Shown in pieces: positions 31 through 59,820 of a DNA stretch of 64,000 bases (positions within the stretch are counted from its first letter, which is position 1; each line of letters begins with the position of its first letter). The stretch is from the IMG/VR virus record IMGVR_UViG_3300044712_000429, positions 1 through 64,000 of that record; one strand, given 5' to 3'. The position numbers were made by a program, and so were the translations under genes. The stretch is from a virus. Under the pieces are notes generated by a model. That model searched no databases, was not told the origin of the DNA, and was given only the letters and a program-made list of their open reading frames with translations.

Positions 31-141
31 AAGAAAGTTCCGAAGTTCCGAAGTTTAGAGATATTCTTACGGAAAAAAGAAAATGATGGCTAGACCCAAG
101 TCGATGTTTGTGTGTAGTGAGAGTTGGGAAATTTCGGAACC
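31..141. repeat. Nested inverted-repeat element, copy A
   Basis: Seen directly: two abutting GTTCCGAA octamers (37-44, 45-52). The arm GTTCCGAAGTTT (45-56) is complementary to AAATTTCGGAAC (129-140) with one G-T pair. Inside it, CCCAA (95-99) pairs with TTGGG (124-128), which abuts the outer arm. The same plan, order and much of the sequence recur at 37533-37649. The conserved nesting suggests either a structured RNA or a cruciform or protein-binding DNA element such as an origin or operator. The direction of any transcript is unknown. Confidence 0.7.
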
Positions 142-4236: not shown

Positions 4237-6264
4237 ATGTCCACATTGAGCAAGCGTTACCTTGGCACCCAGGTTGATGTCCTCATCAAAGCGGACTTGC
4301 TCACGCGCCCGAAGGACGAGCTGCCGTACTACACCACAGTGGTTGCGGTCGACGGCGTCACCGTGCTAGTGAAAAAGCAGGACAGCGTCAAGACCCTCAT
4401 CGAGCTTCCGACACCCGCCTACGACTTCCAGTTCATGCCGGTCGGGAACAGGATTCCAAGCACGGCTACCACCATCGACGCCACCAAGGACTACCGGCAA
4501 GGTCTCTCACGAGACAGCGTCGACGGTCAGCTCGAACCCTCTACCGGCGTCCCCACGGTCATGCACGGCACGTTCGAAGCCAGCCCCACGGTCACATACA
4601 AGAGCGGGGTGGGTCACGTCGGCTCATCGAGCTGGTTCGGCAGTACGGATCATGTGATCTCGTGGAATGGCATCGGCACCATGGACGGCTGCGGGAACGA
4701 CTACCGTGCGTACCGTGAGCTACAGCTCAGTCAGGCGTATATCAACCCGACGTACGAACCGAACTATTTCCATGCGAACGACAGGAGTCAGCCGCCTGAT
4801 GGCACACACCTCCTCGGCGACAAACCCTACATCCGTGAGAACCCTGACAACCCACCCATCAAGATCATGGACAGGAACACCTCGGTCTTCCGCGACGGCC
4901 AGTTCGTCTACAAGGCCACGTGGCCCGTGCTCGCCGCGTGCGAGGTGAAGGTGACCGAGGGTGGTGTGGACAAGTTCTACCTGCGCGTCCTCTGCGGTCG
5001 CTGGTTCTCGCCACCTGAGAAGTTCACCCCGGTGCAAGGGGATGACGCCTACTTCTTCGAGGCATACACGCTCTCAGGGTTCTACCTCTACGTGCAGAGC
5101 GCCACGGGGTGGGAGCTGAAGATCATCGAGATACCGGCGCTGACGGCGCACCCGAGCTACTCCACCGAGAGCTTCATGGCCCAGGCGCCCCACTTCTCTC
5201 CGGACGGCTCCGTCGCAGTCGGGATCATCGAGACAGGCTTGGGCGGTGTGCCGAACATCAGCCAGCAGTTCTACGAGGGGAAGCTGGTCACGAAGACACA
5301 GGCGTGGGTCTTCAAGATTGACGTGGCGGCTGGTACATGCACCCTCACCGAACCTGCCAGCACCTACACGTTCACCGCAAGCGGCACAAACACCAGCGAC
5401 AGCACCAGCTACAGCTACGTCCGCGAGCAAGTGCTGGCGGTGTATCCGGACAGCTCATCGTCCATCAAGAAGATCGTGAAGACGGAGACCCTGTCCACGG
5501 TGAAGAACATCACCGACAACCAGAAGGCGAACGCGGCCACTACACCTGTCATCGCCTACGGCGAGGAGGGTACGATTCAGGTGGCGAACATCCAGCAGCT
5601 CATCATGAACAGGCTAGGTGAGTTGCAGGCGGCGTTCTTTGCTTCGAGACCTCTCGCCACCGCAGCGGACATGATCGGCGTCACCTGTAACGCCCAGTAC
5701 CCAACGTCGGATAACCACGAGACAGGGAACCCAAGCGCCTACAGCTACATTCCTGAACCGGCAGACACGGTGGTTCTCTGCACCTTCGAACTGTCCACGG
5801 GGTTGATCACGAGCAACACCACGACGCTTGCGGCTGGCTGGAAGAGTACGGATTACGGCCCTAGCAACCTCGGTATCTGCGGCAAGACATCGCTGACGAA
5901 TCCGAACCAGACCACTACCGTGACGAAGTCGGTGAGCATCAACGCCTTCAACACCGTGGTCTCCACGACCCCTGCGGTAGAAGTCACCACGACAGGCGGG
6001 CAAGAGGTCGTCATGCGCGGAGCAGGGTGGATTGCGTCGGCATACGCTGTCGGCGCGACGGTGGGTTTCACCCCGTCGATACCGATTGAGATTGACCGCT
6101 CGTGGCAGGCGAACACCGCCGCCTCGTCCACCACCGGGAGTCTCACCATCGAGTCTCTGGTCGTGGTTGCAGCAGACCCGAGGAAGGGTGCTGCTATCGT
6201 GAAGAACCAGACCACCAACGCACTCAGCTACGTCGGCATCTCTGAACCTTCGGGAGGATTTTGA
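4237..6264 (+). CDS. Unknown 675-aa late protein between terminase and portal
   Basis: I do not recognise this protein. It is Thr/Ser/Gly/Val-rich with alternating beta-like stretches and no membrane segment or signal peptide. Segments such as 'HFSPDGSVAVGI' (about residue 330) resemble beta-propeller blades. The start at 4237 follows GAGGAAGAG, just beyond the large terminase stop. Its place between the terminase and the portal, inside the packed late operon, suggests a particle component such as an adsorption or tail-associated protein. No enzymatic motif is visible. The next gene starts on its stop codon (TGATG), so they are co-translated. Confidence 0.85.
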   Translation: MSTLSKRYLGTQVDVLIKADLLTRPKDELPYYTTVVAVDGVTVLVKKQDSVKTLIELPTPAYDFQFMPVGNRIPSTATTIDATKDYRQGLSRDSVDGQLEPSTGVPTVMHGTFEASPTVTYKSGVGHVGSSSWFGSTDHVISWNGIGTMDGCGNDYRAYRELQLSQAYINPTYEPNYFHANDRSQPPDGTHLLGDKPYIRENPDNPPIKIMDRNTSVFRDGQFVYKATWPVLAACEVKVTEGGVDKFYLRVLCGRWFSPPEKFTPVQGDDAYFFEAYTLSGFYLYVQSATGWELKIIEIPALTAHPSYSTESFMAQAPHFSPDGSVAVGIIETGLGGVPNISQQFYEGKLVTKTQAWVFKIDVAAGTCTLTEPASTYTFTASGTNTSDSTSYSYVREQVLAVYPDSSSSIKKIVKTETLSTVKNITDNQKANAATTPVIAYGEEGTIQVANIQQLIMNRLGELQAAFFASRPLATAADMIGVTCNAQYPTSDNHETGNPSAYSYIPEPADTVVLCTFELSTGLITSNTTTLAAGWKSTDYGPSNLGICGKTSLTNPNQTTTVTKSVSINAFNTVVSTTPAVEVTTTGGQEVVMRGAGWIASAYAVGATVGFTPSIPIEIDRSWQANTAASSTTGSLTIESLVVVAADPRKGAAIVKNQTTNALSYVGISEPSGGF

Positions 6265-25048: not shown

Positions 25049-26413
25049 GTGGCGTTCGATCCCTACTTCGGTAACGTACCCCTACTGCTCCACGGAAACG
25101 GCGCCAACGCTGGCGTCGTTTTCACGGACTCAGCAGTGGGTCGTACGATGACTGCTGTAGGGAACGCGCAGACCATCACGGGTACAAGGAAGTTCGGCAC
25201 TGCGTCGATGTTCTTCGACGGCACGGGTGACGCTGTAACCGCCACCGACTCGGCAACACTGGAGATCGGTGCGCGGGACTTCACTATCGAAGGATGGCTA
25301 TGGTTCGACGCGCTACCCACGGCGGGGAACCAGTCGTGGTTCTATGGAAAGTATTCGAGCGGTGTTGATCAACGCTCGGTGTCGTTCTACATCAACAACA
25401 GCGCCGGTACGTACAGTCTCAATTGTCTGCTGAACCCGACAGGATTGAGTGCTGCGAACGTTGTCACTTCCGTCAACTTCGCAAGCGCACCGCCAGTATT
25501 CACCTTTCTGCATCTTGCTGTCACACGCAAGAGCGGTACGGTACGCTTCTTCGTGAACGGTGTGCAACTCGGTGCTGATCAAACGAACAACACCACCGCG
25601 TTCGATGGAACGTCGGATATTTCTATCGGCGGCACGCACGTGGGAGCGAACGACCTCACGGGTTACATCGATGACTTCCGTCTGACAATCGGTGCTGCTC
25701 GATACATCGCCAACTTCACGCCGCCGACTGAAGAGCTTCCCGAGATCGGCACGGTGTGGGTTGATAACTTCAACGGCACCAACGGCAGCGCCACCTTCAA
25801 CACCGCAGACCAAATGCCGCAGACATACTCGGCTGTTGGGGGTAATGCGCAATACAGCACAGCGGCAGGTAATCCGAAGTTCGGGACTGCCGCGCTGCTG
25901 CTCGATGGCAACGGTGATTACCTAACCCTACCTGTCACCGAGCATTTCAACTTCGGTACAGGTGACTTCACAGTTGAGTTTCATCTGCGGCGCAAGGGTG
26001 ACAGTGCGATCTACGGTGCGTCCTCGCTCATCATCGACGGTCGTACAAACAGCATCACCTCTGGTCGAATGTCGATGGGTATGGGTGGCCCCGAAGGAAC
26101 AGTGACTGGTGGTGTGACGATCCCGGCGAACACGCTTTACATGTACGTTCCCAACGGAACAGCCCCTGCGCTCGTCGCTCCGTCGCCGATGGTATTGAAC
26201 CAGTATTACCACATTGCCTTCCAGAAGAAGGCGAGTGTGCTGACGCTATTCATCGACGGTGTGGAAGTCGGCTCTGTTGCAGACACGAACTCATGGTCGC
26301 TGAGCGGCTCACAACTCGGTGCACGCTACGCCATCAGTGGTAGCAACTGGAGCGGCTTCAACGGCAACTTTGACGCCCTGCGGATCACCAAAGGTTACGC
26401 GAGGTACTCATGA
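25049..26413 (+). CDS. Double-LamG virion protein (454 aa)
   Basis: Two laminin-G/concanavalin-like jelly-rolls in tandem. Domain 1 (about 5-230) has 'FGTASMFFDGTGDAVT', 'ARDFTIEGWLWF' and closing 'YIDDFRLTIGAARYIANFTPPTEE'. Domain 2 (about 240-454) repeats the same order, 'FGTAALLLDGNGDYLTLP', 'TGDFTVEFHL' and 'NFDALRITKGYARY'. GTG start four bases after the previous stop. Such domains bind sugars; here they likely decorate the tail or head and aid cell attachment (inference). Confidence 0.85.
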   Translation: MAFDPYFGNVPLLLHGNGANAGVVFTDSAVGRTMTAVGNAQTITGTRKFGTASMFFDGTGDAVTATDSATLEIGARDFTIEGWLWFDALPTAGNQSWFYGKYSSGVDQRSVSFYINNSAGTYSLNCLLNPTGLSAANVVTSVNFASAPPVFTFLHLAVTRKSGTVRFFVNGVQLGADQTNNTTAFDGTSDISIGGTHVGANDLTGYIDDFRLTIGAARYIANFTPPTEELPEIGTVWVDNFNGTNGSATFNTADQMPQTYSAVGGNAQYSTAAGNPKFGTAALLLDGNGDYLTLPVTEHFNFGTGDFTVEFHLRRKGDSAIYGASSLIIDGRTNSITSGRMSMGMGGPEGTVTGGVTIPANTLYMYVPNGTAPALVAPSPMVLNQYYHIAFQKKASVLTLFIDGVEVGSVADTNSWSLSGSQLGARYAISGSNWSGFNGNFDALRITKGYARYS

Positions 26414-27042
26414 GCTTCACACCTCCGATCATTGCACCCACCGTATTCCTTGAGATTACGGGGACGATGGCGGCAACCCTGCCGGTTGTCCAGTTCTCCA
26501 ATGACCCGCCGCTCAATGCAGAACTGACGCTCGTCACCGCCTCCATCGAGGCGTACCACGGGATCATGATCGACGCCGCGCTGCCGGTAGTCGAAATGGA
26601 ATCTGCTGGTGTCGCAGGTACGGCGATGGATGTCGTTGCCAAGCTCACCACGGTAGACGTGGCCCTGGCTGGCGGCGCGTTCTCCATCGACGCAGCCTTG
26701 ACTACGGTAGAGGCAAGTGTCGACGCGATGGTGGGCAACCTGCTCAATATCGACGGTCGCCTGCCGCTGCTCGAAGACAGCATGGCCGGTGACGTGTGGA
26801 ACCTGCTCACGATCAACGCACGCCTACCTCGTCCATCCAGCAGCCTCGCGGCGCTGCGCGGGAACCTGCTCGTGCTCGATGCTGACCTGACCAAGACTCG
26901 CGCTCTGCTCGACGGTCACACGGGTCGTGCCTGTGAGATCGACGCCGAGCTGACAGCCATCGCTGCTTCTCTGGTCGTGTTCCAGCGCGTCGAGGGTAGC
27001 GTGTCTGCGCACATGACGAAACTGCGTGGAGAACTGCGGTGA
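26410..27042 (+). CDS. Protein with 21-residue tandem repeats (210 aa)
   Basis: From about residue 18 to 195 the protein is built of repeats of 21 residues (some shorter) with a common start of the form hydrophobic-Ile-Asp/Asn-Ala-x-Leu-Pro/Thr. Examples are 'IDAALPVVE', 'IDAALTTVE', 'IDGRLPLLE', 'INARLPRPS', 'LDADLTKTR' and 'IDAELTAIA'. This points to a regular rod or solenoid, probably a virion spacer. It overlaps the LamG gene stop and its own stop overlaps the next start (GTGA). No family recognised. Confidence 0.75.
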   Translation: MSFTPPIIAPTVFLEITGTMAATLPVVQFSNDPPLNAELTLVTASIEAYHGIMIDAALPVVEMESAGVAGTAMDVVAKLTTVDVALAGGAFSIDAALTTVEASVDAMVGNLLNIDGRLPLLEDSMAGDVWNLLTINARLPRPSSSLAALRGNLLVLDADLTKTRALLDGHTGRACEIDAELTAIAASLVVFQRVEGSVSAHMTKLRGELR

Positions 27043-29315: not shown

Positions 29316-30710
29316 ATGGCTACCTCAAAGAAGAAGATCGCTCTCGAAAACGCCAAGAACGCAGAGGACGTGTTCAAGGCTCGCGCCGCAGCCGACTCCG
29401 TGCGCGGCTCACAGGAAGCCGCAGCCGCTGCGAAAGCTGCTGCCGCCGCTGGAGCGGACGGAATCCCCGGCTCACTGCGTTCCTTCTTCAACAAGGTGCC
29501 TGTCGGTGCAGCCGCGAAGGAACTTGGTAAAGAGATTGGCCTCGCCGGGGCGAAGGCACTACCTGTCGCAGGTAACGTGGTCTCTGGCGGTCTCGCTGCC
29601 AAGGGTGTCTATGACATGGTCACTGACCCTTCTCAGCGCACCCTTGGTCGTGCCGCAGAGACCGCGCTGGATGCTATCGGTGCAATCCCTGTCTTGGGTA
29701 ACGCATCGAACGCTCTGCGCTTTGGCAGCAAGGCCGCTCAGGTGGGTGCAATCGCAGCCGGTGGCCTTCGCTCCGCACTGGGTACGGACGAAGCAATCCC
29801 TCCGGTATCTGTGAATCCTGCCGAGGTTGCCGCCCTGCGTGCAGAGCGCCCCGCACAAGCAGCCGCAGGAGCACAACCTGCCAGCCTTCAACCCGCCCCG
29901 GCTCCGACTCTTGAACAGAACATCGACGCTCGCGCCGGTCGCGTGGAAGACCTTCGTGGTGCCGTGTCGGACGCTCAGACCGCTTACGATAACTCGCGCC
30001 TACAGGGTGCAATCGATTCGTACGCGCAGCGGATTCCCGGCATGGCCGCGTTCGCCTTGGCGAGCCAAGGTATCCGCTCGGCACCGGAAGCAGCCACGTT
30101 GAAGAGCGCAACACGTGACTATGCAATGGCGCGCAGCGATGCAGCCCACGATGACAAGGTTGGTCTGGAACTGGGTACGCTTCGCTCTCAGCAATCCCTT
30201 GCCCAGGCGAAGATGCACCATGACATGCTGAACAACACGGCAGATCGTGTGGGCAAGTTCGAGGCGCGTTCCACTGTCGGGCCTGATGGGAAGACGAACC
30301 CCGACGCTGCAGCGTTCAACTCTGACGTTCGCCGCATTGCCTCCGACGACGCCGCGCTTGCCGGTGAGACTACCCCGACACTGGCGCTGGCGCGACTGCA
30401 AGGCGCTGTGGATGACACGAACGCCATGCGCAACTACAACGACGTGGCATCGGTTAATCGCCGCATGAGTACAGCCCCGAAGGTGCTACCGGGTGCCGAC
30501 ACCGTAGGGTTCCGCGACGCGCTGCCGGGAGGCGCTGGACTGGGTGCAGCTATTCGCGCCAAGCTCACTCGCACCCCCAACGAGGTCTACACCGTTCGCA
30601 CACCTGACGGACAAGAGCAACGCATCCTCTCCACCGATCTTTCCGGTGGTGACTCGACACTTCGCGCACGCTATGCGAAACAAGCAGGGCTGACACAAGG
30701 GAATCGTTAA
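29316..30710 (+). CDS. Ala-rich internal virion protein candidate (464 aa)
   Basis: Strongly Ala-rich and helical, with Gly/Ala hydrophobic segments (about 65-100 'AKELGKEIGLAGAKALPVAGNVVSGG') that could insert in membranes, and a Pro/Ala-rich linker around residues 180-210. Its stop shares a base with the start of the 2,179-aa gene (TAATG). Size, composition and order (coiled coil, this, giant protein) match the set of ejection proteins of short-tailed phages. No enzymatic motif is seen. Confidence 0.65.
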   Translation: MATSKKKIALENAKNAEDVFKARAAADSVRGSQEAAAAAKAAAAAGADGIPGSLRSFFNKVPVGAAAKELGKEIGLAGAKALPVAGNVVSGGLAAKGVYDMVTDPSQRTLGRAAETALDAIGAIPVLGNASNALRFGSKAAQVGAIAAGGLRSALGTDEAIPPVSVNPAEVAALRAERPAQAAAGAQPASLQPAPAPTLEQNIDARAGRVEDLRGAVSDAQTAYDNSRLQGAIDSYAQRIPGMAAFALASQGIRSAPEAATLKSATRDYAMARSDAAHDDKVGLELGTLRSQQSLAQAKMHHDMLNNTADRVGKFEARSTVGPDGKTNPDAAAFNSDVRRIASDDAALAGETTPTLALARLQGAVDDTNAMRNYNDVASVNRRMSTAPKVLPGADTVGFRDALPGGAGLGAAIRAKLTRTPNEVYTVRTPDGQEQRILSTDLSGGDSTLRARYAKQAGLTQGNR

Positions 30711-33700
30711 TGGGACTCATACTCGACACTGCCCCTCTCGGTCTCCGCGCCGGAGCGTTCAGCGGGAACGGTAACGTCGCACCGCCCCCGCGTGGTGAGA
30801 TCGAGAAAGGATTCAACCTCGGCGTAGGTGGCGTGGCTTCCGGCCTTCAAGGCTCTGTTGCCACGCTTCAAGACGCCCTCGGTTATCACGACGAGGCGCT
30901 GGCTCGCTACGCTGCTGCACGCCTTGAAGCTGAGCGCATGGCGCGTGAGAACCCGCTAGCCGTGCAGAACTTCACCGACATCAACAGCCTCGGTGACGCC
31001 GGGAACTGGGCAGCGGGTGCGCTCGGCCAAGCCGTGCCGTCCATCGCCACAGGTATTGGTGGTGCTGTCGCCGGTCGCCTGGGCCTCGGTGCCGCAGCGA
31101 AGTTCGCCAAGAATCGCGGCTCGGCTGCAGTGTCCCAAGCCCTGAGCAACCCGACACTGAACACCGCCGTAGGTGCTGGCCTCGGCATGCTTCCGCAAGA
31201 AATGGGTGAGAGCGCCATGAGCTTGTATGGCGACCCCACTGCAATGGCGAACACGACGCCCGTGGATCGCCTCGGCATCAACCTTGGAAAGGGGGTGGTC
31301 AATTCTGCGCTCGAATCCATCGTACCGGCCTACACCATCGGCAAGGTGGTGAAGCCCGGTGTGATCAAGGGCGGCATGGGTGGCGCGGCGGCGCACGTGG
31401 GGAAGATTGCAGGCATAGACGCTGCTGGTGAGTTCCTGACTGAAGGCGCTCAGAACGTGGTGGGAGACCTTGCGCACGGGGTGGCGAACCCTGCGAACAA
31501 GGTGGACTGGAAGGAAGCCTTCAACGCCGGTATGGCAGGCGCTGTAGGTGGCGCGGCGATGGGTGGTGCCGGTGGTATCGCCGGTATCGCCAAGGACAAG
31601 CTCAGCAAGACTCCTGAGCCGAAAGTCACGAAGGCCGTGGACGACAACCGCAAGTGGACACAGCACTCGGAGCTTGACGGCCTCACCACGCCGCAGGAAG
31701 CCCCTCGGGGCTTGCGCAAGAACGGCACGGACGACGAGCTGCTGGCGTGGCAGGGGCAAGACGACGTGGCGCGCACGCAGAAGGCCGTGAAACTCGCCAA
31801 GGACATGGTAAGCGATCCCGCTGCGCCGCAGGACGTGAAGCAAGCCTCGGCTGACTTCCTGACGGAAGCCGAGAACGGCAACGCCCAGGCATGGGCTGAG
31901 TACTCCGCTGCCTTGGGCCATCGCCGCGACATCGTGAAGACCACGGAGAAGGTGGAAGACTTCGCCTCGAAGGTGGGCGAGCTTCTGGCGAAGGGTGTCA
32001 AGAAGGTGGAAGGCACCAAGCAGAGCTTGATGCAGAACACCACGGCGAAGAACTACACCCCCACTGAAGCGGACTTGGACTTCGCACAGCGCCTGTTCTC
32101 GCGTGACAACATGCAGGGCTTGGACAAGAAGCTGGATGACAAGTCAAAGGCAATGTTCGCCAAGTACCTGCGCGGTTACATCGAGAGCGGCTTCGGTGCG
32201 GAACATAATGACGGTGAGGTCGTAGTCCCCGACCAGCTCAGCGAGCTGCTTGGTGAACACACGGCAAAGGCGATCACCAACGCTGCTGACATCCTGCGCC
32301 GTGACCACGGCTTCAAGATGGACAAGACCTACGTTGAGCGTGTGAAGCAAGTGGCTGAAGTGGTCTCTGGTCACGCCACGGCGCGCAAGGCTGACAAGCA
32401 GATCATCAGTGACAACCTCACTTCCGAGGCGTACGACACACTGCACGCTTCAAGGCTCGGTGACGTGGCGCAGATGGCGAAGGAGCAGGCGCTCGGCCTC
32501 GGTAAGCATACGGACAAGCTGAAGGCGCTCCTCGGCCCGAACACCGACGCGGTGTTGCAAGCGTTCCATGACAAGTACAAGCGCGAGTCTCCCGGTACGG
32601 TCGACCTTGGTCGCCAGCAAGTGGAGGATGACGAAGGTGTTGTTCACACAGGGCATGAAGGTGAATCCTCTGTGTCCGAGGACAAGGTCACTTATCACGG
32701 GCGCGATGCAAAGAAGGGTGGCCTCTATGACATGGAGAACCCCGAGCATCGTGACTGGCACGGCAAGAACCTTGCGGACATCGCCGCTCGCAAGGGTGCC
32801 ACCACACGCTCCATCGGCGCTGCGGACTATCTGCTGAACAGTGGGATGAAACCAGAGCAGGCCCAGGCTGAACTTGAAAAGCTCCTCGGCGCACCTCTTC
32901 CGGCCTCGGCCAAGGAGCGCAAGCCTGTGCTGGACGCACTGAACAAGCGTTACCGTGGCATTGAAGCGACGGTGCATGCCGGTGAAGAGGCTGACCCGCT
33001 GACCATCACACACGACGAGATGAAGTCCCTGCGCGACGGTGGTGACAAGAAGAACCGTCACATCGGCTTGGGTCGCCTGACACTGGTGGCGAAGGACGGC
33101 AAGGAGTTCCACACGTCTTCGCAGCGCCTCATCCAGCTCATGGAGAAGAAGACGAACGCCGACATCAGCGCCACCGAACAAGGTGGTGTTGAAGCGAAGC
33201 GCCGTCAGTTCTCAGCAGCTCTGGCGTCGATCATGCAGAGCGAGAACTTCGATCACATTCGCTACACGGACAAGCAAGGTGTGACGCACGATCTTGCGAA
33301 GGGTGAGTCGTTGCCCAAGGACTTCGTGCTGTTCAACTTTGGCCTGGGCAAGTCCGTCACCCTCGGTGAGGCTGAGCAAGGTCGCAGCGATGAGCAGCAA
33401 GCCAAGAAGGAAGCTGCCGACGAGCGCCGCCGTGTGTTGAAGGAGCGCAACAGCGAGCTGAACGGCTATCAAGTCACGCGCTATCCGAGCAAGGAAGCTG
33501 CTGCAAAGAAAGCTGCCGAGCTGTCCAAGGCGAAGGACAAGGACTACGTTCCTGTCCTTGGTGCCAACGGCAAGTGGCTCGTTGAGCAGCGCCGTGCCGC
33601 GAAGCGTGGCTACACGGACGGTGTGGACACGAATAACCTTGCTGATTACACACGTGCTGAGCTGACGGAAGAGATTGGCAAGGCAACTGCCGGTATCGCC

Positions 33701-36700
33701 AACGCACAGAACGAAGGGCATCGCGCTGCGCTTGAGTCCCGCCTGGATAAGCTGAATGAAGAGCTGGCCCTGCGTCCCGATGACGAAGACAGCGGACCTC
33801 GGCGCGGTGACGCACAGATGTCTGCTGTGGTCACTGAGGACGCGGCAGTTGTGTCCGGTAAGAAGGCGTACGACGCAACGCTTGCCAAGCTCGCCGATGT
33901 GAACGAAAAGCTCCTGACGGTGAAGAACATCGTTGAGCGCAAGACACTGCGCGCTCTGCGCTCGGACTTGAACGCACAGCTTCGTCGCATGGAGTCCGAG
34001 AAGGAAGCGGGTTCAATCTCTGCGTCCGATACAGCGAATCAGCGCCGCCCCGACCTCGCCAAGCCGTTCGCTCAAGAGTTCGGCGATACGGCTGTGCAGA
34101 ACGCCGCCTCTGGCAAGACGAACACGAACACCAAGTCTCCTTACGCAGGCAAGGCTACTCCGTCACTGGACGAAGGTGTTGTGTTCTCCGAAAACGCTGC
34201 TGAGCAGCAAGAATCCCAAGTCCATGTGCGCGACGAAGAGACCAAGCTCGACGTACAGGGTAAGCACAGCCGCAATCAACAGAGCGCCACTGAGCGCATC
34301 GGCACGCTGAAGGGGATCATCAGCACCACGGAGCAGCGCCTCGCCAAGGGTCGAGAGCTGCTGGCCAAGGCCGCACCCAAGAGCCGTGAGGCGATCATCG
34401 AAAACGGCAAGCGCCTCGCTGGTGTGCTGGCGAAGGCTCAGCGCGAGCTGGCCGAGGTGGAAGAGAACCTGAAGGTGCTCGACAAGAAACCAAGCGCCAC
34501 GACAAACAGCGCAGAAGTCACCGTCACCCCTGAAGTAGAGGCGGCGATCCGCGAGTACGCGGAGCGGGTGCTAGGCCCGAAGTTCAAGGTCATCATCAAG
34601 GATATGGCCATCGCCGGTGAGTGGTCTCCCAAGGGTGCCATGCGTATTGCCACCACCGCCGTAGACCCCTACGGCGTGGCCCACCACGAGTCCATCCACG
34701 AGCTGTTCAAGCGCCTGCGCGATCACGGTGACGCACGCACTCTCGAAGTGTTGAACAACCTGTCGACCAACAAGATCATCCGGCGCAAGCTCGAACAGCT
34801 TCTCGCCGGTCACCCCGAGGCAATCAAGCAGCTCTCTGATCCTGAAGAGTTCGCCGCGTACGTCTATCAGTTCCACGCAGCCGGTGTGCTTGAGCTAGGC
34901 CCGAAGGCCGAAGGTCTGTTCGCCAAGATCAAGAACTTCATCAAGGGTGTGCTCGGTGTCCTGACGGAAGACCAGAAGGCCGAGCAAATCCTCATCGCCT
35001 TCAACCAGGGTGCGGCCAACGACATGAGCTTCTTCGGCCAAGCCATGAACGCCATGGACTCGATGAACGCGGAGTGGGGCAAGGTGACGACCAACCTGAG
35101 CGGCTACGTGGATAAGGCCAACGCCTTCCTCGGTTCCGTGGAAGGTCGCCTCGTCGGGAACAAGAACCCGCACCTCGACACCCTCGGTCGCCTGTTCGTG
35201 AACGTGGTCGGTGAGAAGGGTCAGCAAGGTCACCTTCAAGCCGTGCGCCAGAAGATCGACCAGATGGACTCCGGTCTCAAGCGTGCCATCGAGCGCGCCT
35301 ACGGCCCCGACGAGGAGATAGACCCGAAGGATGTGGAGATGGCGATGGAGGCGATGCAGAAAGGCATCACAGCCCCTGACCGCATCGCTCGCAAGATTCA
35401 AGACGAGATACAGGGTCTCAAGCCGGGTGGCATGACCAGCGACGGTCGCAAGTCCTTCTTCCTGCGCATGCACGAGTACCTGAAGGACTCTGGCGTATCC
35501 GTGTGGGACAACGAGAAGGACGCCTGGGTGCCGGTGAGCTACGTGGAGAACTACTTCCCGCGTGCATGGGACACGGAGAAGCTGGCATCAAACGGTGAGC
35601 AGTTCATCGCTTTGCTGCTGCAGCACCACACCAAGGACTTGCAGGGTATCGCCGACAAGGTGAATGCCGAGAGCAAGGCAGCGAAGCCGCTGACACCGGA
35701 GGACATCGCTCACGCGATCCTTCAGCGCCTGACCACGAGCAATGGCCAGAACGACCTGGGCGAGACCAACTCGTCCATGGGCTTCGCGCCGTTCATGAAG
35801 GCGGTCAACAAGCGCACCCTGAACTTCATCGACATGCGTGTGTTCGCCGAGTTCCAAGAGAAGGACTTCACCCATATCCTGTCCGGCTACATCCGTCAGG
35901 CTGTGAAGCGCGCCGAGTACGTGAAGCGTTTCGGCCTCGCCGGTGAGGTGGTAGAGAGCAACATGCGGCAGGCTCACGAGTGGGAACTCAACAAGGATGC
36001 TGACGGGATGGGTGTGAAAGACCTCGTCGGCAAGGCCAAGAGCGCATACCGCTTCGAGAGGGATGCGGCGATTAAGGCTGGCAAGAAGCCGCCAAGCGAG
36101 TGGCAAGACCTGATCCCGCGCATCATGAAGGACAACGGGGTTGATGACCAAGGCGTGTCCGAGCTGACGAAGCGTGTGAACGAGCGCATGGTGAGCTATG
36201 CCAAGGCGATCTCTGCCATGGAAGGCACCCTCGGCGCTGACGCCTCTGACCTGACCAAGACTGTCAGCAGCTACATGATGGCCTACCAGAACTGGCGCAA
36301 CCTCGGCTACGTCCTGTTTGCAAACATCATCGACCCCATGGGGACGATCATCAACGGCGGCGAAGTGAATGACGCCTTCGCCACACTGCGCGCCGGTCTC
36401 ACAAGCATCGTCAAGGGCAAGGACTACAAGACCGACGCGATCAAGCTGGCCGAGTACGTAGGCACCATCGACGCGAACCACTTCCACGGGATGCTCGGTG
36501 AGATGTACGGCTCACAGTTCACGGCCAAGGGTGCTGCATGGCTGAACGACAAGCTGTTCCAGTTCAACGGTATGGAAGCCTACAACCGTGGCGTCCGCGC
36601 CCAGGCGACGATGGTGGCGAAGAAGTTCATCGAGAAGCACGTCACCACACCGAACCAGCACAGCGCACGCTACATCGAAGAACTCTACGGTGAGAACGTC

Positions 36701-37249
36701 AAGGCCAGCGACATCAAGATGAAGGATGGCCAGCTCGACATCACCGATGACAAGAACCGCGTGGCCTTGATGCGGTGGGTTGACGGCGCCATCCTGCGCC
36801 CCACAGCCGCACAGCGCACCACATGGGGTAGCGATCCGCTGTACCAGCTCTTCTTCCAGTTCAAGACCTTCACCTACGCCATGCACCGCGTGATCCTGCG
36901 CCGCGCCTACATCGAGGCTCAGCATGGGAACTACTCCCCGGCGCTGACGCTGGTGGCGGGTTACGTGCCGGTGATGATTGCTGCAGACCTGTTCAAGGGT
37001 CTGGTCACCAATCTAGGCGATGAGCCGGAGTGGATGAAGGGTCTCGGCCCCGCAGGCGTGCTTAGCAACGGCGTACAGCGTGCGGGACTGGCAGGCATCT
37101 ATCAGTTCGGCCTGGACGCCGCAGACAACCCCTTGAGGGCTGCTGGCCCCATGGTTGGGCAGATCGGTGACGCCTTCAAAGACCCGCTCGGCCTCACAGG
37201 GTTGAAGGCGCTACCGCTCAGCCCACAGGTGCGTGGGGCTGTCGACTGA
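30710..37249 (+). CDS. Giant internal virion protein with HEXXH motif (2,179 aa)
   Basis: Largest gene of the window and last of the late operon. The N-terminus has Gly/Ala-rich hydrophobic segments (about 100-130 and 273-296) suited to membrane insertion. Long charged helical and coiled-coil parts follow (about 330-760, 900-1290). A zinc-protease signature HESIH lies at residues 1326-1330, with a downstream Glu in 'DPEEFAAYVYQ' as possible third ligand. A conserved 'VENYFPRAWD' block occurs near 1612, and a C-terminal region ('FFQFKTFTYAMHRVIL', then a hydrophobic 'TLVAGYVPVMIAADLF') ends the protein. Such polyvalent proteins are ejected with the DNA. No lysozyme or RNA polymerase motif is recognised. 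Confidence 0.85.
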   Translation: MGLILDTAPLGLRAGAFSGNGNVAPPPRGEIEKGFNLGVGGVASGLQGSVATLQDALGYHDEALARYAAARLEAERMARENPLAVQNFTDINSLGDAGNWAAGALGQAVPSIATGIGGAVAGRLGLGAAAKFAKNRGSAAVSQALSNPTLNTAVGAGLGMLPQEMGESAMSLYGDPTAMANTTPVDRLGINLGKGVVNSALESIVPAYTIGKVVKPGVIKGGMGGAAAHVGKIAGIDAAGEFLTEGAQNVVGDLAHGVANPANKVDWKEAFNAGMAGAVGGAAMGGAGGIAGIAKDKLSKTPEPKVTKAVDDNRKWTQHSELDGLTTPQEAPRGLRKNGTDDELLAWQGQDDVARTQKAVKLAKDMVSDPAAPQDVKQASADFLTEAENGNAQAWAEYSAALGHRRDIVKTTEKVEDFASKVGELLAKGVKKVEGTKQSLMQNTTAKNYTPTEADLDFAQRLFSRDNMQGLDKKLDDKSKAMFAKYLRGYIESGFGAEHNDGEVVVPDQLSELLGEHTAKAITNAADILRRDHGFKMDKTYVERVKQVAEVVSGHATARKADKQIISDNLTSEAYDTLHASRLGDVAQMAKEQALGLGKHTDKLKALLGPNTDAVLQAFHDKYKRESPGTVDLGRQQVEDDEGVVHTGHEGESSVSEDKVTYHGRDAKKGGLYDMENPEHRDWHGKNLADIAARKGATTRSIGAADYLLNSGMKPEQAQAELEKLLGAPLPASAKERKPVLDALNKRYRGIEATVHAGEEADPLTITHDEMKSLRDGGDKKNRHIGLGRLTLVAKDGKEFHTSSQRLIQLMEKKTNADISATEQGGVEAKRRQFSAALASIMQSENFDHIRYTDKQGVTHDLAKGESLPKDFVLFNFGLGKSVTLGEAEQGRSDEQQAKKEAADERRRVLKERNSELNGYQVTRYPSKEAAAKKAAELSKAKDKDYVPVLGANGKWLVEQRRAAKRGYTDGVDTNNLADYTRAELTEEIGKATAGIANAQNEGHRAALESRLDKLNEELALRPDDEDSGPRRGDAQMSAVVTEDAAVVSGKKAYDATLAKLADVNEKLLTVKNIVERKTLRALRSDLNAQLRRMESEKEAGSISASDTANQRRPDLAKPFAQEFGDTAVQNAASGKTNTNTKSPYAGKATPSLDEGVVFSENAAEQQESQVHVRDEETKLDVQGKHSRNQQSATERIGTLKGIISTTEQRLAKGRELLAKAAPKSREAIIENGKRLAGVLAKAQRELAEVEENLKVLDKKPSATTNSAEVTVTPEVEAAIREYAERVLGPKFKVIIKDMAIAGEWSPKGAMRIATTAVDPYGVAHHESIHELFKRLRDHGDARTLEVLNNLSTNKIIRRKLEQLLAGHPEAIKQLSDPEEFAAYVYQFHAAGVLELGPKAEGLFAKIKNFIKGVLGVLTEDQKAEQILIAFNQGAANDMSFFGQAMNAMDSMNAEWGKVTTNLSGYVDKANAFLGSVEGRLVGNKNPHLDTLGRLFVNVVGEKGQQGHLQAVRQKIDQMDSGLKRAIERAYGPDEEIDPKDVEMAMEAMQKGITAPDRIARKIQDEIQGLKPGGMTSDGRKSFFLRMHEYLKDSGVSVWDNEKDAWVPVSYVENYFPRAWDTEKLASNGEQFIALLLQHHTKDLQGIADKVNAESKAAKPLTPEDIAHAILQRLTTSNGQNDLGETNSSMGFAPFMKAVNKRTLNFIDMRVFAEFQEKDFTHILSGYIRQAVKRAEYVKRFGLAGEVVESNMRQAHEWELNKDADGMGVKDLVGKAKSAYRFERDAAIKAGKKPPSEWQDLIPRIMKDNGVDDQGVSELTKRVNERMVSYAKAISAMEGTLGADASDLTKTVSSYMMAYQNWRNLGYVLFANIIDPMGTIINGGEVNDAFATLRAGLTSIVKGKDYKTDAIKLAEYVGTIDANHFHGMLGEMYGSQFTAKGAAWLNDKLFQFNGMEAYNRGVRAQATMVAKKFIEKHVTTPNQHSARYIEELYGENVKASDIKMKDGQLDITDDKNRVALMRWVDGAILRPTAAQRTTWGSDPLYQLFFQFKTFTYAMHRVILRRAYIEAQHGNYSPALTLVAGYVPVMIAADLFKGLVTNLGDEPEWMKGLGPAGVLSNGVQRAGLAGIYQFGLDAADNPLRAAGPMVGQIGDAFKDPLGLTGLKALPLSPQVRGAVD

Positions 37250-37458: not shown

Positions 37459-37499
37459 AAAGTTCGGAACTTTTGAGGCAAAGTTCCGATCTTCGGAAC
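37459..37499. repeat. Two adjacent GTTC-type hairpins
   Basis: AAAGTTCGGAACTTT (37459-37473) is a perfect 7-1-7 palindrome. GTTCCGA-TCT-TCGGAAC (37483-37499) is a 7-3-7 hairpin. Both use the same GTTCcGAA core as the neighbouring larger elements, so they probably bind the same factor or share an origin. Confidence 0.65.
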
Positions 37500-37532
37500 C
37501 GCTTAACACGTTGAAACAGTTGGGGAAAGCAG

Positions 37533-37649
37533 CAAAAAGTTCCAAAGTTCCGAAGTTTAGGGTCAGTCGTTACAGAAAAAGGAAAGTTGATTTTCGGATG
37601 GACCCAACTATGTGTTCTCTATATAGAGTTGGGTCGAAATTTCGGAACT
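37533..37649. repeat. Nested inverted-repeat element, copy B
   Basis: Second copy of the left-flank element. The outer arms GTTCCGAAGTTT (37547-37558) and AAATTTCGGAAC (37637-37648) are identical to those of copy A. The inner stem is longer here, GACCCAACT (37601-37609) with AGTTGGGTC (37627-37635), and a 12-bp palindrome CTCTATATAGAG (37617-37628) overlaps the inner loop. Spacer blocks (TTAC.GAAAAA.GAAA) are shared with copy A. Conservation of arms, order and spacing argues for a functional structure. Confidence 0.75.
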
Positions 37650-37695
37650 TTGGAACTTTTATTGCCTTTCCCCCTGTGTAGTCAATGAGTTACCC

Positions 37696-37776
37696 GGTTC
37701 CGAAGTTCGTAACCAGGGTTCCGAAGTTTCGCAAGCCCTTGTTCCTGTGGTTAAAATTTCGGAACCGCCGTTTTTC
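37696..37776 (+). repeat. Long hairpin, copy C of the GTTCCGAA family
   Basis: GTTCCGAAG at 37697-37705 is followed by the arm GGTTCCGAAGTTT (37717-37729), which pairs over 13 positions (one G-T) with AAATTTCGGAACC (37754-37766), loop 24 bases containing CAAG..CTTG. GCCG then TTTTT (37771-37775) follows, so on the plus strand this copy looks like a terminator. It lacks the inner CCCAA/TTGGG stem of copies A and B. Confidence 0.65.
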
Positions 37777-37930: not shown

Positions 37931-37978
37931 GGATTGTGATTCCGGCTGTCGTGGGTTCGAGTCCCATCAGCCACCCCA
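37931..37978 (+). other. tRNA-His 3'-end fragment, candidate attP core
   Basis: GGATTGTGATTCCGG (anticodon arm with GTG) is followed by a variable loop, a T arm with GTTCGAGTCCC, the acceptor strand CAGCCAC and CCCA, exactly as at the 3' end of proteobacterial tRNA-His genes. The upstream bases do not form a D arm or a 5' acceptor strand, so this is a fragment, not a tRNA gene. Temperate phages carry such fragments as the attachment core that restores the host tRNA on integration. The tyrosine integrase is at 50685-51656, about 12.7 kb away. Confidence 0.8.
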
Positions 37979-38208: not shown

Positions 38209-38217
38209 TGTGGATAA
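38209..38217 (-). promoter_or_regulatory. DnaA box
   Basis: TGTGGATAA is the exact complement of the consensus DnaA box TTATCCACA. It lies in the non-coding switch region 450-750 bases from the repeat cluster, flanked by CGCCAC and GTGGCG. A single box can occur by chance, but with the octamer repeats nearby a replication origin is possible. Confidence 0.5.
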
Positions 38218-50179: not shown

Positions 50180-50688
50180 GCTGTTGCTCCTTTCGGCCAG
50201 CCAGCGGCGACCAGGGTAGCCACCACGTTCGAGATAGCGGGGAGGTTGTCGGTCTTGCCGCCGTCACGGTCGGCAGGCAGGTATTCCTTGAACTCGGGAA
50301 GGCGTGCTTCGGCCACCTTCAACGTGCTGCAACCTTCGATGAGGGCCTTGAGTCGTTCCTTCAGTTCGTTGCGTTGCAGACGCTGCTCAGCGGACTTGTC
50401 TTGCAGGGCGCCCAGTTCGTCGTAGATGGGGCACTTTTCATCGAACCCCCAGTCGCTCGGGCGAACCATGTAAAGGTTCGGGAAACGACCCGGCATGTAG
50501 GTGTATTTGAAGTCGAGTAGCGGGCGCGCTTCGGGGTTCTTCCACGCGGCCTTGATCTCTGCAGGGCAGATGTTGTCGATGATCCATGCCTGAAGACGAT
50601 CACTGATCATCTCCTCGTAATCAATCTTCGGTACGTCGTCCATGACAGCGCGAACGAACGCTTCCTTGTCGGTCTTGGTGAGTCTCAT
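50176..50688 (-). CDS. Nmad5-like early protein (170 aa)
   Basis: The N-terminus 'MRLTKTDKEAFVRAVMDDVPKIDYEEM' looks like the nucleotide-modification-associated domain 5 group, as remembered. Middle part 'LLDFKYTYMPGRFPNLYMVRPSDW' is aromatic-rich; the C-terminus is helical. If right it may be tied to phage DNA modification; not proven. Overlaps the integrase stop and the 120-aa gene by 4 bases. Confidence 0.55.
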   Translation of the reverse strand: MRLTKTDKEAFVRAVMDDVPKIDYEEMISDRLQAWIIDNICPAEIKAAWKNPEARPLLDFKYTYMPGRFPNLYMVRPSDWGFDEKCPIYDELGALQDKSAEQRLQRNELKERLKALIEGCSTLKVAEARLPEFKEYLPADRDGGKTDNLPAISNVVATLVAAGWPKGATA

Positions 50689-51656
50689 TTCTTGCTCCTT
50701 GAGTGCGGTTGAATTACGTCAGTGGCTCGTTGTTTCATGTATTCCTCAGTCTGTGTCAGAGTCTTGTGACCGAGGAGAAGCTGTGCCTTGCGTGGGTCAA
50801 GCATGTCCGTGGCGACCTTGCCGCGAATGTCATGCTCGTGGAATCGCTGGTTCCCAGTCGATACATATGCGTCCATCGCTCGTCGCCAAGCCGATGCGAA
50901 ACCATTCGAGCTGAACGCTGTCCCCCATTTGGTTACGAATAAGTGCGGCGATTTGTGAGTGAAGCGGTCGAGTATCCGCTTCACTTCCGGCGTGATCTGG
51001 ATGGCCAGTGTCTTTCCGGTCTTCAGGGTTTTGACCCGCAGGAGGTTGTCGCTGAAGTCCGTTTTCTTCAGCAGGAGCATGTCCTGATTTCTCAGCCCGA
51101 GCAGGAGCTTTAGCTCTAGGTAGTTTCTTAACCATTGCGGACACTCCTTTTTGAATGCCTCGATCTCTTCGTCAGTGACGTAGCGATCACGCGGCGTTTC
51201 GCTATTTCGTATTCCCGGGACTGAGCAGGGGTTGCTTCCCACAAGCTCCCAAAGTATTGCCTTGTTGAATGCATGGCTGAGGAGCGCCACTTCGCGGTTG
51301 CCTCGCGTTTTCGCTTTGCGAGTCGCAATGTAGTCGGCCACGTGCATCGGCTTGACTGCAGATAGCGCCATGCCACCAAAGAACGCACGAAGGAACCGAA
51401 TCTCCTGTCGGTTATCCTCCTGCGTGCGAGGAGCTTTGTGCGGTACGACTTCAAGGAGGTATCTGTCGAGCAAATCGGAGACAGAAACACATTGCGCGGG
51501 TGATCCCAAAATGTCAGCCCACCTAGCCATCGCTTTCGCGTAATCACGATCCAGCTTCTCCCACTTGTTCGTACCTGGATGGACGTAGTAGTACGCCCCA
51601 TCCTTGAAATAGACGCGCTCAGGAAGATCGCGTCGATGAATTCTTGGGCGACCCAC
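50685..51656 (-). CDS. int: Tyrosine integrase
   Basis: Site-specific recombinase of 323 aa that should integrate the phage into the host chromosome. Core catalytic residues are visible: R189 ('GLRNQD'), Lys in 'LKTGKTLAI', H275-D-I-R278, H297 ('LLLGHK') and Y306 ('TEEYMK'). The N-terminal SAM-like core-binding domain spans about 55-145. The tRNA-His 3' fragment at 37931-37978 is the likely attachment core. Integrase and attP are usually adjacent; here they are 12.7 kb apart. It overlaps the DUF4224-like gene by 38 bases. Confidence 0.95.
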   Translation of the reverse strand: MGRPRIHRRDLPERVYFKDGAYYYVHPGTNKWEKLDRDYAKAMARWADILGSPAQCVSVSDLLDRYLLEVVPHKAPRTQEDNRQEIRFLRAFFGGMALSAVKPMHVADYIATRKAKTRGNREVALLSHAFNKAILWELVGSNPCSVPGIRNSETPRDRYVTDEEIEAFKKECPQWLRNYLELKLLLGLRNQDMLLLKKTDFSDNLLRVKTLKTGKTLAIQITPEVKRILDRFTHKSPHLFVTKWGTAFSSNGFASAWRRAMDAYVSTGNQRFHEHDIRGKVATDMLDPRKAQLLLGHKTLTQTEEYMKQRATDVIQPHSRSKK

Positions 51657-57938: not shown

Positions 57939-58116
57939 GGTTGTTCACCACTTTGAAAGGGTCGATGCATTCGTGAAGGACGAAGCCTTCGAAGAGTCGC
58001 CAGCCAGCCGGGGTTTGCTCCCAACGCAACCCGGGCTTGTTGCAGTATTTGCAGCCGGATTGATGGGGTTCCTCCTCATCGTCCGGCTCAAGCGGGAGAT
58101 AGTCTTCAGCCGCCAT
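57856..58116 (-). CDS. Small Cys-containing protein overlapping the polymerase (86 aa)
   Basis: 'HQSGCKYCNKPGLRWEQTPAGWRLFEGFVLHEC' contains a CxxC pair plus a Cys, a short zinc-binding unit, framed by an acidic start and a basic tail. ATG at 58116. It overlaps the polymerase start by 83 bases and the 113-aa gene by 11. Its long overlap and low start for the polymerase suggest coupling. Confidence 0.6.
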   Translation of the reverse strand: MAAEDYLPLEPDDEEEPHQSGCKYCNKPGLRWEQTPAGWRLFEGFVLHECIDPFKVVNNLEQTTPDLRHGNHRQQKTSVPRRRKKS

Positions 58117-58447
58117 GTTTAGCCTCTTCCTTTTCCCAGTACTCGATCATCCACGTCACCCATGCCACACGAGTGGCGCGCATCTTGGCGTAAAACTCTT
58201 TTTCCGCCTTTTGATAGTCTCCGTACTGTTCATAGTCGAGTGAATTCGGAGCTTTGATTCCGTGCATGCAATCAAGCCATGTATCGAGCGGGTAATAGTG
58301 ACACTGCGTCCCCATCAACCCTGTGACCCAAAGACGCAAGGGATGTTCACGATTATTTGTGATTTCAGAAATCGTGCAGCAGACAAATAGCGACTGATGA
58401 TTTTCGATTTTGGTGCGAACAGCACGGAGAATTTCGGAATACTTCAT
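58106..58447 (-). CDS. Hypothetical early protein (113 aa)
   Basis: 'MKYSEILRAVRTKIENHQSLFVCCTISEITNN', 'LWVTGLMGTQCHYYPLDTWLDCMHG' and a Trp/Lys-rich end. Looks like a small alpha/beta protein with two or three Cys. ATG overlaps the helicase stop by 4. No family identified. Confidence 0.65.
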   Translation of the reverse strand: MKYSEILRAVRTKIENHQSLFVCCTISEITNNREHPLRLWVTGLMGTQCHYYPLDTWLDCMHGIKAPNSLDYEQYGDYQKAEKEFYAKMRATRVAWVTWMIEYWEKEEAKHGG

Positions 58448-59820
58448 GTCATCCCCAGGTAAGCGAGTAGGTTGTTCTGACGCACGTCCTTGGCCTGACA
58501 CGAGCGCCACACTTGCTCGTCAATCGTGCCGCGTGCAATGACCATGATGGTCTCCGTCTTCAGCGTCTGCGTGATTCGGTAGATACGCTTATACGCTTGC
58601 AGAAAATGCTCAAGATTCGGAGTCGGGCTGGCGAAAATAGTGGTCGTCCCTCGGGTGAGAGTAAGACCGTGTCCTGCCGATTGAGGATGCGCAAAAAGAA
58701 CCTTGTACTTGCCCTGTTGGTAGGCCCGAACAATCTCTTCACGTTCACCCTTACCCGTCGTTTCACCATCAATGACCGCATAGCTCCACCCTCGTTCCTT
58801 GGCTTGCTTGAGTAGTTCGTCACGCTGGTGACGCCAGTTGAAGAAGACGATGCTGTGCTTGCGAGCGTCGATTAGATCGGCGATCAGCTCATATCTGCCG
58901 GTGTCCAGCAGAGCATAGTCTTCGTCGTCAGAGTACGACGCGCCTGAAGCGCACTGCAGCAGCTTCCCGTACAGCACCGCGCCGTTGATGGCGGTGATGC
59001 TGGTCTTCTGTTGCTTGAGCAACAGGAAGCCGTCATTCTTGAGCTTCTGGTACTTCGCCATGTGCTTCGGCGCCAGATCGTAATAGACCGGATACTGGTG
59101 GTTCGGCGGGATGTCTACGCATTCTTCGAACACGTTACGGATCACCATGTCGCCGATAAGCGCACCGACTACAGGCTCGATCCCGGGCTTGTCGATCCAT
59201 TCGAAGAAATTCGTGGGCTTGCCGCGATCATCGAGCTTGCGTTCGTAGTTGCACACCGCCGAGCGGAAGTGGAAGAACGACTCGCCGAGCTTGGCCCCGT
59301 CATCGAGCACCAGCATCTGGTGGTGAATGTCACAGATGCCGTTCGAGGTCGGTGTGCCAGTTAGCAGGCGACGAATCTCGAAGTGCTTCTTGATCTTGTC
59401 TACCGCTTTGCTGCGAGCGGAGGTGCGATGCTTGACGGAGGTGGATTCGTCAATGATGAGGTGTTCGAAGCGTTCGAAGAACTTCGGCTTTTGCTTCGCC
59501 AGCCAAACCGCCGCATCGATGTTTGTGACGTAGGCATCGGCGTCCACAGCGAAGGCTTCTTCACGATTTTCTGCATACGCGAGACTCACTTTCATGTCAG
59601 GCGCGAAGGTGGCGAAGTCGTCGCCCCAGGCGCTGCGGATCAGAGACTTCGGACAGAGGACAAGTACACAACCCCCACCCTTGCGACGACGCGTGGCGAA
59701 GTCAGTGACATGCACGGGCGTCTTGCCGGTTCCGGCATCAGAAGTGTCGAAGACCCGGGGGCGCGGTTTAAGGAACGCGACCGAGGCTTTCTGGTGCTTG
59801 AACAGGGTGGGGGTTGCCAT
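58444..59820 (-). CDS. SNF2-type DNA helicase
   Basis: A 458-aa superfamily 2 ATPase. Walker A 'DAGTGKT' (28-34), motif II 'IIDEST' (DExx, 122-127), motif III 'LTGTP' (153-157) and C-terminal motifs 'VLFAHPQSAGHGLTL' (V) and 'RIYRITQT' (VI) are in order. Likely unwinds or remodels DNA during replication or recombination. The start at 59820 has AAAGG nearby. It shares an early operon with the family B polymerase. No separate DnaB-type helicase is seen. Confidence 0.9.
   Translation of the reverse strand: MATPTLFKHQKASVAFLKPRPRVFDTSDAGTGKTPVHVTDFATRRRKGGGCVLVLCPKSLIRSAWGDDFATFAPDMKVSLAYAENREEAFAVDADAYVTNIDAAVWLAKQKPKFFERFEHLIIDESTSVKHRTSARSKAVDKIKKHFEIRRLLTGTPTSNGICDIHHQMLVLDDGAKLGESFFHFRSAVCNYERKLDDRGKPTNFFEWIDKPGIEPVVGALIGDMVIRNVFEECVDIPPNHQYPVYYDLAPKHMAKYQKLKNDGFLLLKQQKTSITAINGAVLYGKLLQCASGASYSDDEDYALLDTGRYELIADLIDARKHSIVFFNWRHQRDELLKQAKERGWSYAVIDGETTGKGEREEIVRAYQQGKYKVLFAHPQSAGHGLTLTRGTTTIFASPTPNLEHFLQAYKRIYRITQTLKTETIMVIARGTIDEQVWRSCQAKDVRQNNLLAYLGMT

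Follow-up and report, generated by a model that had tools for sequence, protein, structure and literature searches.

Candidate iteron replication origins in a tailed phage and co-variation of their sites with a phage primase-helicase

We analyzed a window of 64,000 nt of viral DNA (positions 1 to 64,000 of the IMG/VR record IMGVR_UViG_3300044712_000429), in which an initial annotation made from the sequence alone had described a nested inverted repeat in two copies, here called copy A and copy B. Both copies were found again, each as the mere core of a larger cluster, and each of these clusters (cluster I and cluster II) contains ten GTTCC(G/A)A sites. We consider it likely that both clusters are iteron replication origins or control sites that are read by the primase-helicase of the phage. 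A replication site was among the options that had been offered for the repeat, and it is the one favored by the evidence: we observed that the clusters have a defined architecture and position, that these are conserved in related phages, and that the site sequence co-varies with residues of the putative initiator.

Iteron clusters and their conservation in related phages

The clusters and the elements in their immediate neighborhood are located as follows (window coordinates unless the record is named).

Cluster I, record 69729-70035/1-140, across the circular join, near the early operon start
Copy A, 31-141, no strand: core of iteron cluster I
Left iteron set of copy A, 37-44 and 45-52, plus strand: two direct GTTCCGAA sites with an 8-bp period
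Spacer of copy A, 53-132: AT content 0.63 (genome 0.42), A-rich block at 71-79, weak 5-bp inner CCCAA...TTGGG stem
Right iteron set of copy A, 133-140, minus strand: inverted site TTCGGAAC
Cluster II, 37463-37765: ten GTTCC(G/A)A-type sites in both orientations, includes copy B
Copy B, 37533-37656, no strand: core of cluster II
Parts of copy B: direct sites 37539-37554, spacer 37555-37640, inverted sites 37641-37656
Inner stem of copy B, 37601-37609/37627-37635: 9 bp, GACCCAACT/AGTTGGGTC, with CTATATAG in the loop
tRNA-His identity, 37932-37978, plus strand: 47 bp identical to proteobacterial tRNA-His genes (3' half), probable core of attP
DnaA-box consensus TTATCCACA, 38209-38217, minus strand: in the cluster II intergenic region, sole occurrence in the 70-kb record

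Some of the sites are direct repeats with an 8-bp period and others form 17-bp palindromes (GTTCC-N7-GGAAC), and the nested inverted repeat takes in few of them. Cluster I lies mostly outside the window (record 69729-69905). The exact word GTTCCGAA was counted 12 times in the window, compared to 2.4 expected occurrences, and none of 100 shuffles reached as many, so that multiple short repeats in non-coding DNA are present as in iteron origins. The shared parts of the two copies were described correctly by the initial annotation: the 12-base outer arms of copy A are identical to those of copy B (right arm AAATTTCGGAAC at 129-140 and 37637-37648), and both copies have the lead-in octamers, the A-rich block and the CCCAA/TTGGG inner stem. 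Within one copy, 11 of the 12 arm bases are paired, with one G.T. The direct sites of copy B read GTTCCAAA/GTTCCGAA and are followed by a AGAAAAAGG block near 37575; the alignment of copy A with copy B has an E-value of 1.7e-12.

The copies had been placed at the two borders of the late operon. This holds insofar as cluster I is located at the point where early and late genes diverge and cluster II at the point where they converge; the window, however, does not begin at a natural border. The 70,035-bp record begins and ends with the same 127 bp. Since two related records (G017 and G021) have a terminal overlap of exactly the same length, we take this repeat as an assembler overlap on a circular map, and position 1 is therefore arbitrary. 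On this map copy A lies in non-coding DNA between the early operon start and small leftward genes ahead of the late operon, and copy B in a 1-kb non-coding stretch where the ends of the late and early operons converge.

For comparison we examined terminase relatives (up to 70% identical) and 66 initiator loci from the initiator alignment A1, two sets that overlap; single-protein scans with the initiator found no relatives and an alignment query was needed. Many relatives carry 4-10 copies of a phage-specific 8-mer between the 5' end of the initiator gene and the terminase, often directly upstream of the gene for the primase-helicase (~800 aa). The site words differ between phages (GTGTAACA, GTGAAACA, GTGGAACA, TGGAACAA, CCTTACGA, CTTCCAAA, TGTACCAA, CCTAGCAA and others), and in one register most of them fit [GC]T[TA]NC[AG]N. 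The core consists of 2-3 direct units, a spacer of ~70-120 bp with an AT content of mostly 0.61-0.87, and 1-3 inverted units. By script this layout was found in 27 of 29 phages, of which ~24 were convincing when read; the cores of G011, G033, L111 and L139 are doubtful, and in G002 the script chose the wrong pair although the right core is visible on reading. In all 22 cores compared the AT content of the spacer lies above that of the genome (mean difference +0.28), as is typical of iteron origins. Conservation in related phages, which had been proposed as a check, is thus strong for architecture and position but not for sequence.

A second cluster with the same phage-specific word as the first was observed in G033, G026, G018 and G015. 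G033 is the sister of the window phage on the initiator tree, and its second cluster is flanked by the end of a giant virion-protein gene on one side and by a tRNA-His 3' half on the other, next to which an integrase gene is located. In the window, cluster II is separated by 166 bp from the attP-like core, an exact match to tRNA-His genes of several proteobacteria. Two clusters that share an iteron, one of them near attP, were seen in these two phages, whereas no attP was seen in the other phages with two clusters. One of these, G018, is Pseudomonas phage KPP25 (Kochitakasuvirus), in which both clusters have the word GTTACGA and lie in gaps of the annotation (26219-26894 and 58070-58633). In some relatives with one cluster, G002 among them, the contig stops at about the place expected for the second.

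Further elements recur within the clusters. Across phages with different iterons, the core repeatedly contains a TATA-like box, located ~25 bp ahead of the right iteron set, and a GAAAAATAAAAAG-like block in the middle of the spacer. KPP25 (26300-27000 and 58100-58680) has a second repeated word, GCTGGAGCCTTAGTGCCACGCGGG, possibly another class of origin repeat, with three copies in cluster I and an inverted, partial form in cluster II. Cluster I of L054 (~5810-5910) and that of G033 (4395-4454) contain three to four closely packed perfect TTATCCACA boxes. DnaA boxes are suggestive in close relatives only, and the arrays suggest a role of host DnaA in cluster I of these two close relatives but not in most of the group.

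Co-variation of the candidate initiator with the sites

Primase-helicase gene (D5/DUF5906 family), record 66501-68927, minus strand: 808 aa

The gene of this candidate cognate initiator lies near cluster I, it is present in 26 of 26 other records, and residues of the protein co-vary with the sites. Its helicase part matches the NrS-1 primase (6k9c/6k9e) with an E-value of 9e-53 and the alpha protein of satellite phage P4 with an hhalign probability of 91% (E 9e-7). Likeness to the NrS-1 primase-polymerase was found in the helicase part only. The helicases of P4 alpha and the initiator are homologous, but the C-terminal wing region gave no alignment with P4 alpha, so that homology of the C-terminal domains was not detected. 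By eye we recognized an LDxD-like motif of AEP primases in the N-terminus, while the primase of P4 alpha is of the Toprim type (PMC4234260). A 279-aa neighbor protein was considered as site binder and rejected, with a homologue in just 1 of 26 records.

The distance between site motifs correlates with the distance between initiator C-termini (Mantel r 0.21, p 0.008), whereas no correlation with helicase distance was found when the C-terminus was held fixed, and whole-protein distance is a weak predictor of the motif. In a scan of 769 initiator columns, the best association with site base 1 was found for residue 755 and that with base 4 for residue 762. Tryptophan is found at residue 755 whenever base 1 is C and never when it is G; residue 762 is arginine when base 4 is not C, and Y, W, Q, N or M when it is C. 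Each of the two residues accounts for all variation at its base (25 phages). The same scan yielded no C-terminal residue that stands out for base 6 and no clear rule for base 7, and L127, with G at base 4 and serine at 762, is a mismatch to the simple arginine rule. In the AlphaFold model (predicted local distance difference test, pLDDT, 91.5) two helices are followed by a C-terminal hairpin, the predicted wing, and residues 755 and 762 are placed on its two strands.

In a scripted held-out test on phages that had not been used in finding the residue rule, 13 of 21 predictions were right and 4 were ties (permutation p ~1e-5). L095 fits the rule as well, its site word GTACCGA being taken from L054 on the same contig. 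For counting switches we used a tree of the initiator without its C-terminal domain and observed at least 5 switches at base 1 and at least 7 at base 4; residue and base agree in 37 of 37 phages for base 1 and in 36 of 37 for base 4. Residue and base have switched jointly between the sisters L098/L144, L127/L153 (base 1), G001/G007, G002/G034 and L120/L123. Since two residues vary together with the site sequence in dozens of phages, the comparison suggests that the primase-helicase reads the iterons directly.

Two initiators, those of G033 (L118, 5001-8198) and G029 (L142), carry an insertion of ~270 aa around the P-loop helicase region and have a total length of 1066-1094 aa. The insertion of G033 has a weak Pfam intein-splicing match, and in both proteins the insertion is probably an intein.

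Proposed mechanism and alternative explanations

Binding, melting and origin activity are proposed here by analogy with P4 alpha, whose winged-helix domain binds the origin repeats (PMC4234260), and with SaPI Rep; in related helicases, including the Rep proteins of phage-inducible islands (PICI/SaPI), iterons are recognized by the C-terminal domain (PMC7581432). The C-terminal domain of the primase-helicase would bind the GTTCC(G/A)A iterons, with residue 755 reading base 1 and residue 762 reading base 4. The head-to-tail left sites and the inverted right sites could then load helicase on both sides of the AT-rich spacer, which would melt and on which the primase part would start synthesis. 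The main origin would be cluster I, which lies near the initiator gene, and cluster II, near attP, would be either a second cis-acting site like P4 crr or a second origin. Of all steps, a crr-like function of cluster II is the one we are least sure of, and by comparison with P4 we regard the chances for and against it as even.

P4 (NC_001609) likewise has two separate clusters, ori and crr, which are bound by a C-terminal domain of alpha and have the same layout and polarity as the window clusters: short type 1 iterons (TGTTCACC) in direct pairs that converge on an AT-rich spacer. Its crr starts ~190 bp from the attP core, comparable to the location of cluster II. However, the P4 spacer measures 35 bp in both ori and crr compared to 82-88 bp in the window, and P4 is a satellite while the window phage has 70 kb and its own virion genes. 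PICI/SaPI origins are located 3' of the rep gene, whereas cluster I was found upstream (5') of the initiator gene and not directly 3' of it, and clusters are often two. KPP25 resembles the window in its homologous initiator (36%) and its two clusters; it differs in the site word, in that no attP was seen and in the distance of ~12 kb between cluster I and the initiator gene.

Several observations weigh against this interpretation. The residue rule was noticed post hoc, after inspection of the data, and for 12 extra phages on the tree the motifs were assigned by visual reading when the prediction was already known. Phylogenetically independent pairs number 4-5 per position, for which the sign test gives p 0.125 each, above 0.05 for either position taken singly. 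The C-terminal domain appears winged-helix-like in the model from its topology alone, and a Foldseek comparison of the C-terminal model with the PDB returned no significant match. The spacers of the window are among the least AT-rich of the set, and the canonical polarity is not found in every core, G033 being ambiguous. Several relatives have one cluster only; among them, the contig of G003 appears to span the region and is nevertheless without a second cluster. In KPP25 and G026, cluster I stands 12-15 kb away from the initiator gene.

An operator array, with sites bound by a phage repressor or transcription regulator of early and late promoters, would account for cluster I lying upstream of the leftward early operon, for the TATA-like box ahead of the right site in many cores and for the different words, as operator words diversify between phages too. 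We consider this unlikely: a promoter would not be expected at cluster II, where the ends of two operons converge; the site sequence follows two residues of the primase-helicase; and an AT-rich spacer flanked by inverted sets is the layout of an origin. A dual role of the sites, with autoregulation by the initiator, is possible. A structured or small RNA, in which arms and inner stem are selected for folding, had been among the options of the initial annotation, which took the inner stem as a hint of selection on structure. Both window copies indeed fold better than shuffles (z -3.6 and -4.3) and copy B has its 9-bp inner stem, but in relatives the folding of the spacers averages z -0.57 with 7 of 29 below -2, which does not bear out selection on structure. 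The stem with the CTATATAG loop was found in copy B alone and is not kept in relatives, inner stems are not generally conserved, and the Rfam search gave no match. The arms repeat the phage-specific site, of which many copies lie outside any hairpin. Compensatory arm changes, which had been suggested as a sign of RNA structure, lose this meaning since the site word also changes in copies that pair with nothing; the arms would co-vary because they are copies of one putative protein-binding site. We therefore regard the RNA explanation as very unlikely. A few relatives (G005, G018, G026) have own, different inner dyads, and a minor hairpin role in these phages is possible.

It is extremely improbable that the sites are arm-type sites of the tyrosine integrase around attP. 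Cluster II and the G033 cluster are indeed close to attP-like cores; cluster I, however, is tens of kb away from attP, the clusters are widespread whereas homologues of the window integrase occur in 3 of 26 other records (the G033 integrase is a different one), the site words match the initiator wing instead, and in P4 crr and the integrase arm sites are distinct neighbors. We give equally little credence to a function in partition or packaging, with the sites as a centromere recognized by a partition protein or as a packaging site of the terminase. The grouping of repeats in both orientations and the location of one cluster near the terminase genes would be in line with such a site, but a gene scan, which was not exhaustive, revealed no ParA/ParB family, and clusters on nearly opposite sides of the genome together with the initiator co-variation fit packaging poorly.

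If the clusters are iteron origins read by the primase-helicase, this would give a phage group that includes KPP25 an initiator and an origin location where the records annotate hypothetical proteins and gaps. It would also extend the convergent-iteron, AT-rich layout, reported as limited to phage-inducible islands (PMC6092414), to full-size tailed phages. We lean towards the wider view that a large and unannotated group of ~50-70 kb tailed phages has P4-like iteron origins, often two, with a readable initiator code (755/base 1, 762/base 4) that switches between sisters and makes origin specificity predictable from the protein. Such a code would allow a direct test of how a replication protein and its origin shift specificity together, and perhaps replication incompatibility between co-infecting phages would be predictable from the protein too. 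As a caution, duplication of a protein site, and not RNA structure, can be the source of compensatory changes between two arms.

Genome context and further observations

The surrounding genes were assigned as follows.

Virion protein gene (2179 aa), 30710-37249, plus strand: final gene of the late operon
Tyrosine integrase gene (PF00589), 50685-51656, minus strand

The phage of this record is a 70-kb, circularly mapping and probably temperate phage. Late genes for terminase, portal and virion proteins run rightward from ~2.1 to 37.2 kb, and early genes, including tyrosine integrase, thyX, DNA ligase and the primase-helicase, run leftward from ~69.7 to 38.3 kb; cluster II is located directly beyond the gene of the 2179-aa virion protein. 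A DNA search with the first 24 kb of the window found no near match to known phages, the 2179-aa protein as query gave no matches, and the GC skew has no clear origin signal. Late in the contig of G003 (63901-65701) there is a dense array of ACCGACAGC-type words unrelated to the iterons. Immediately ahead of the late operon start we observed three tandem 46-bp repeats (TATATTTTTCAGTTCCTACGGACAATATGACAACGGCACATTTCCA) at 1806-1943 of the window, possibly a late promoter or a packaging-related array, and at a comparable location G009 (L101) has eight AAACCCCTACAA-type repeats with a 22-bp period.
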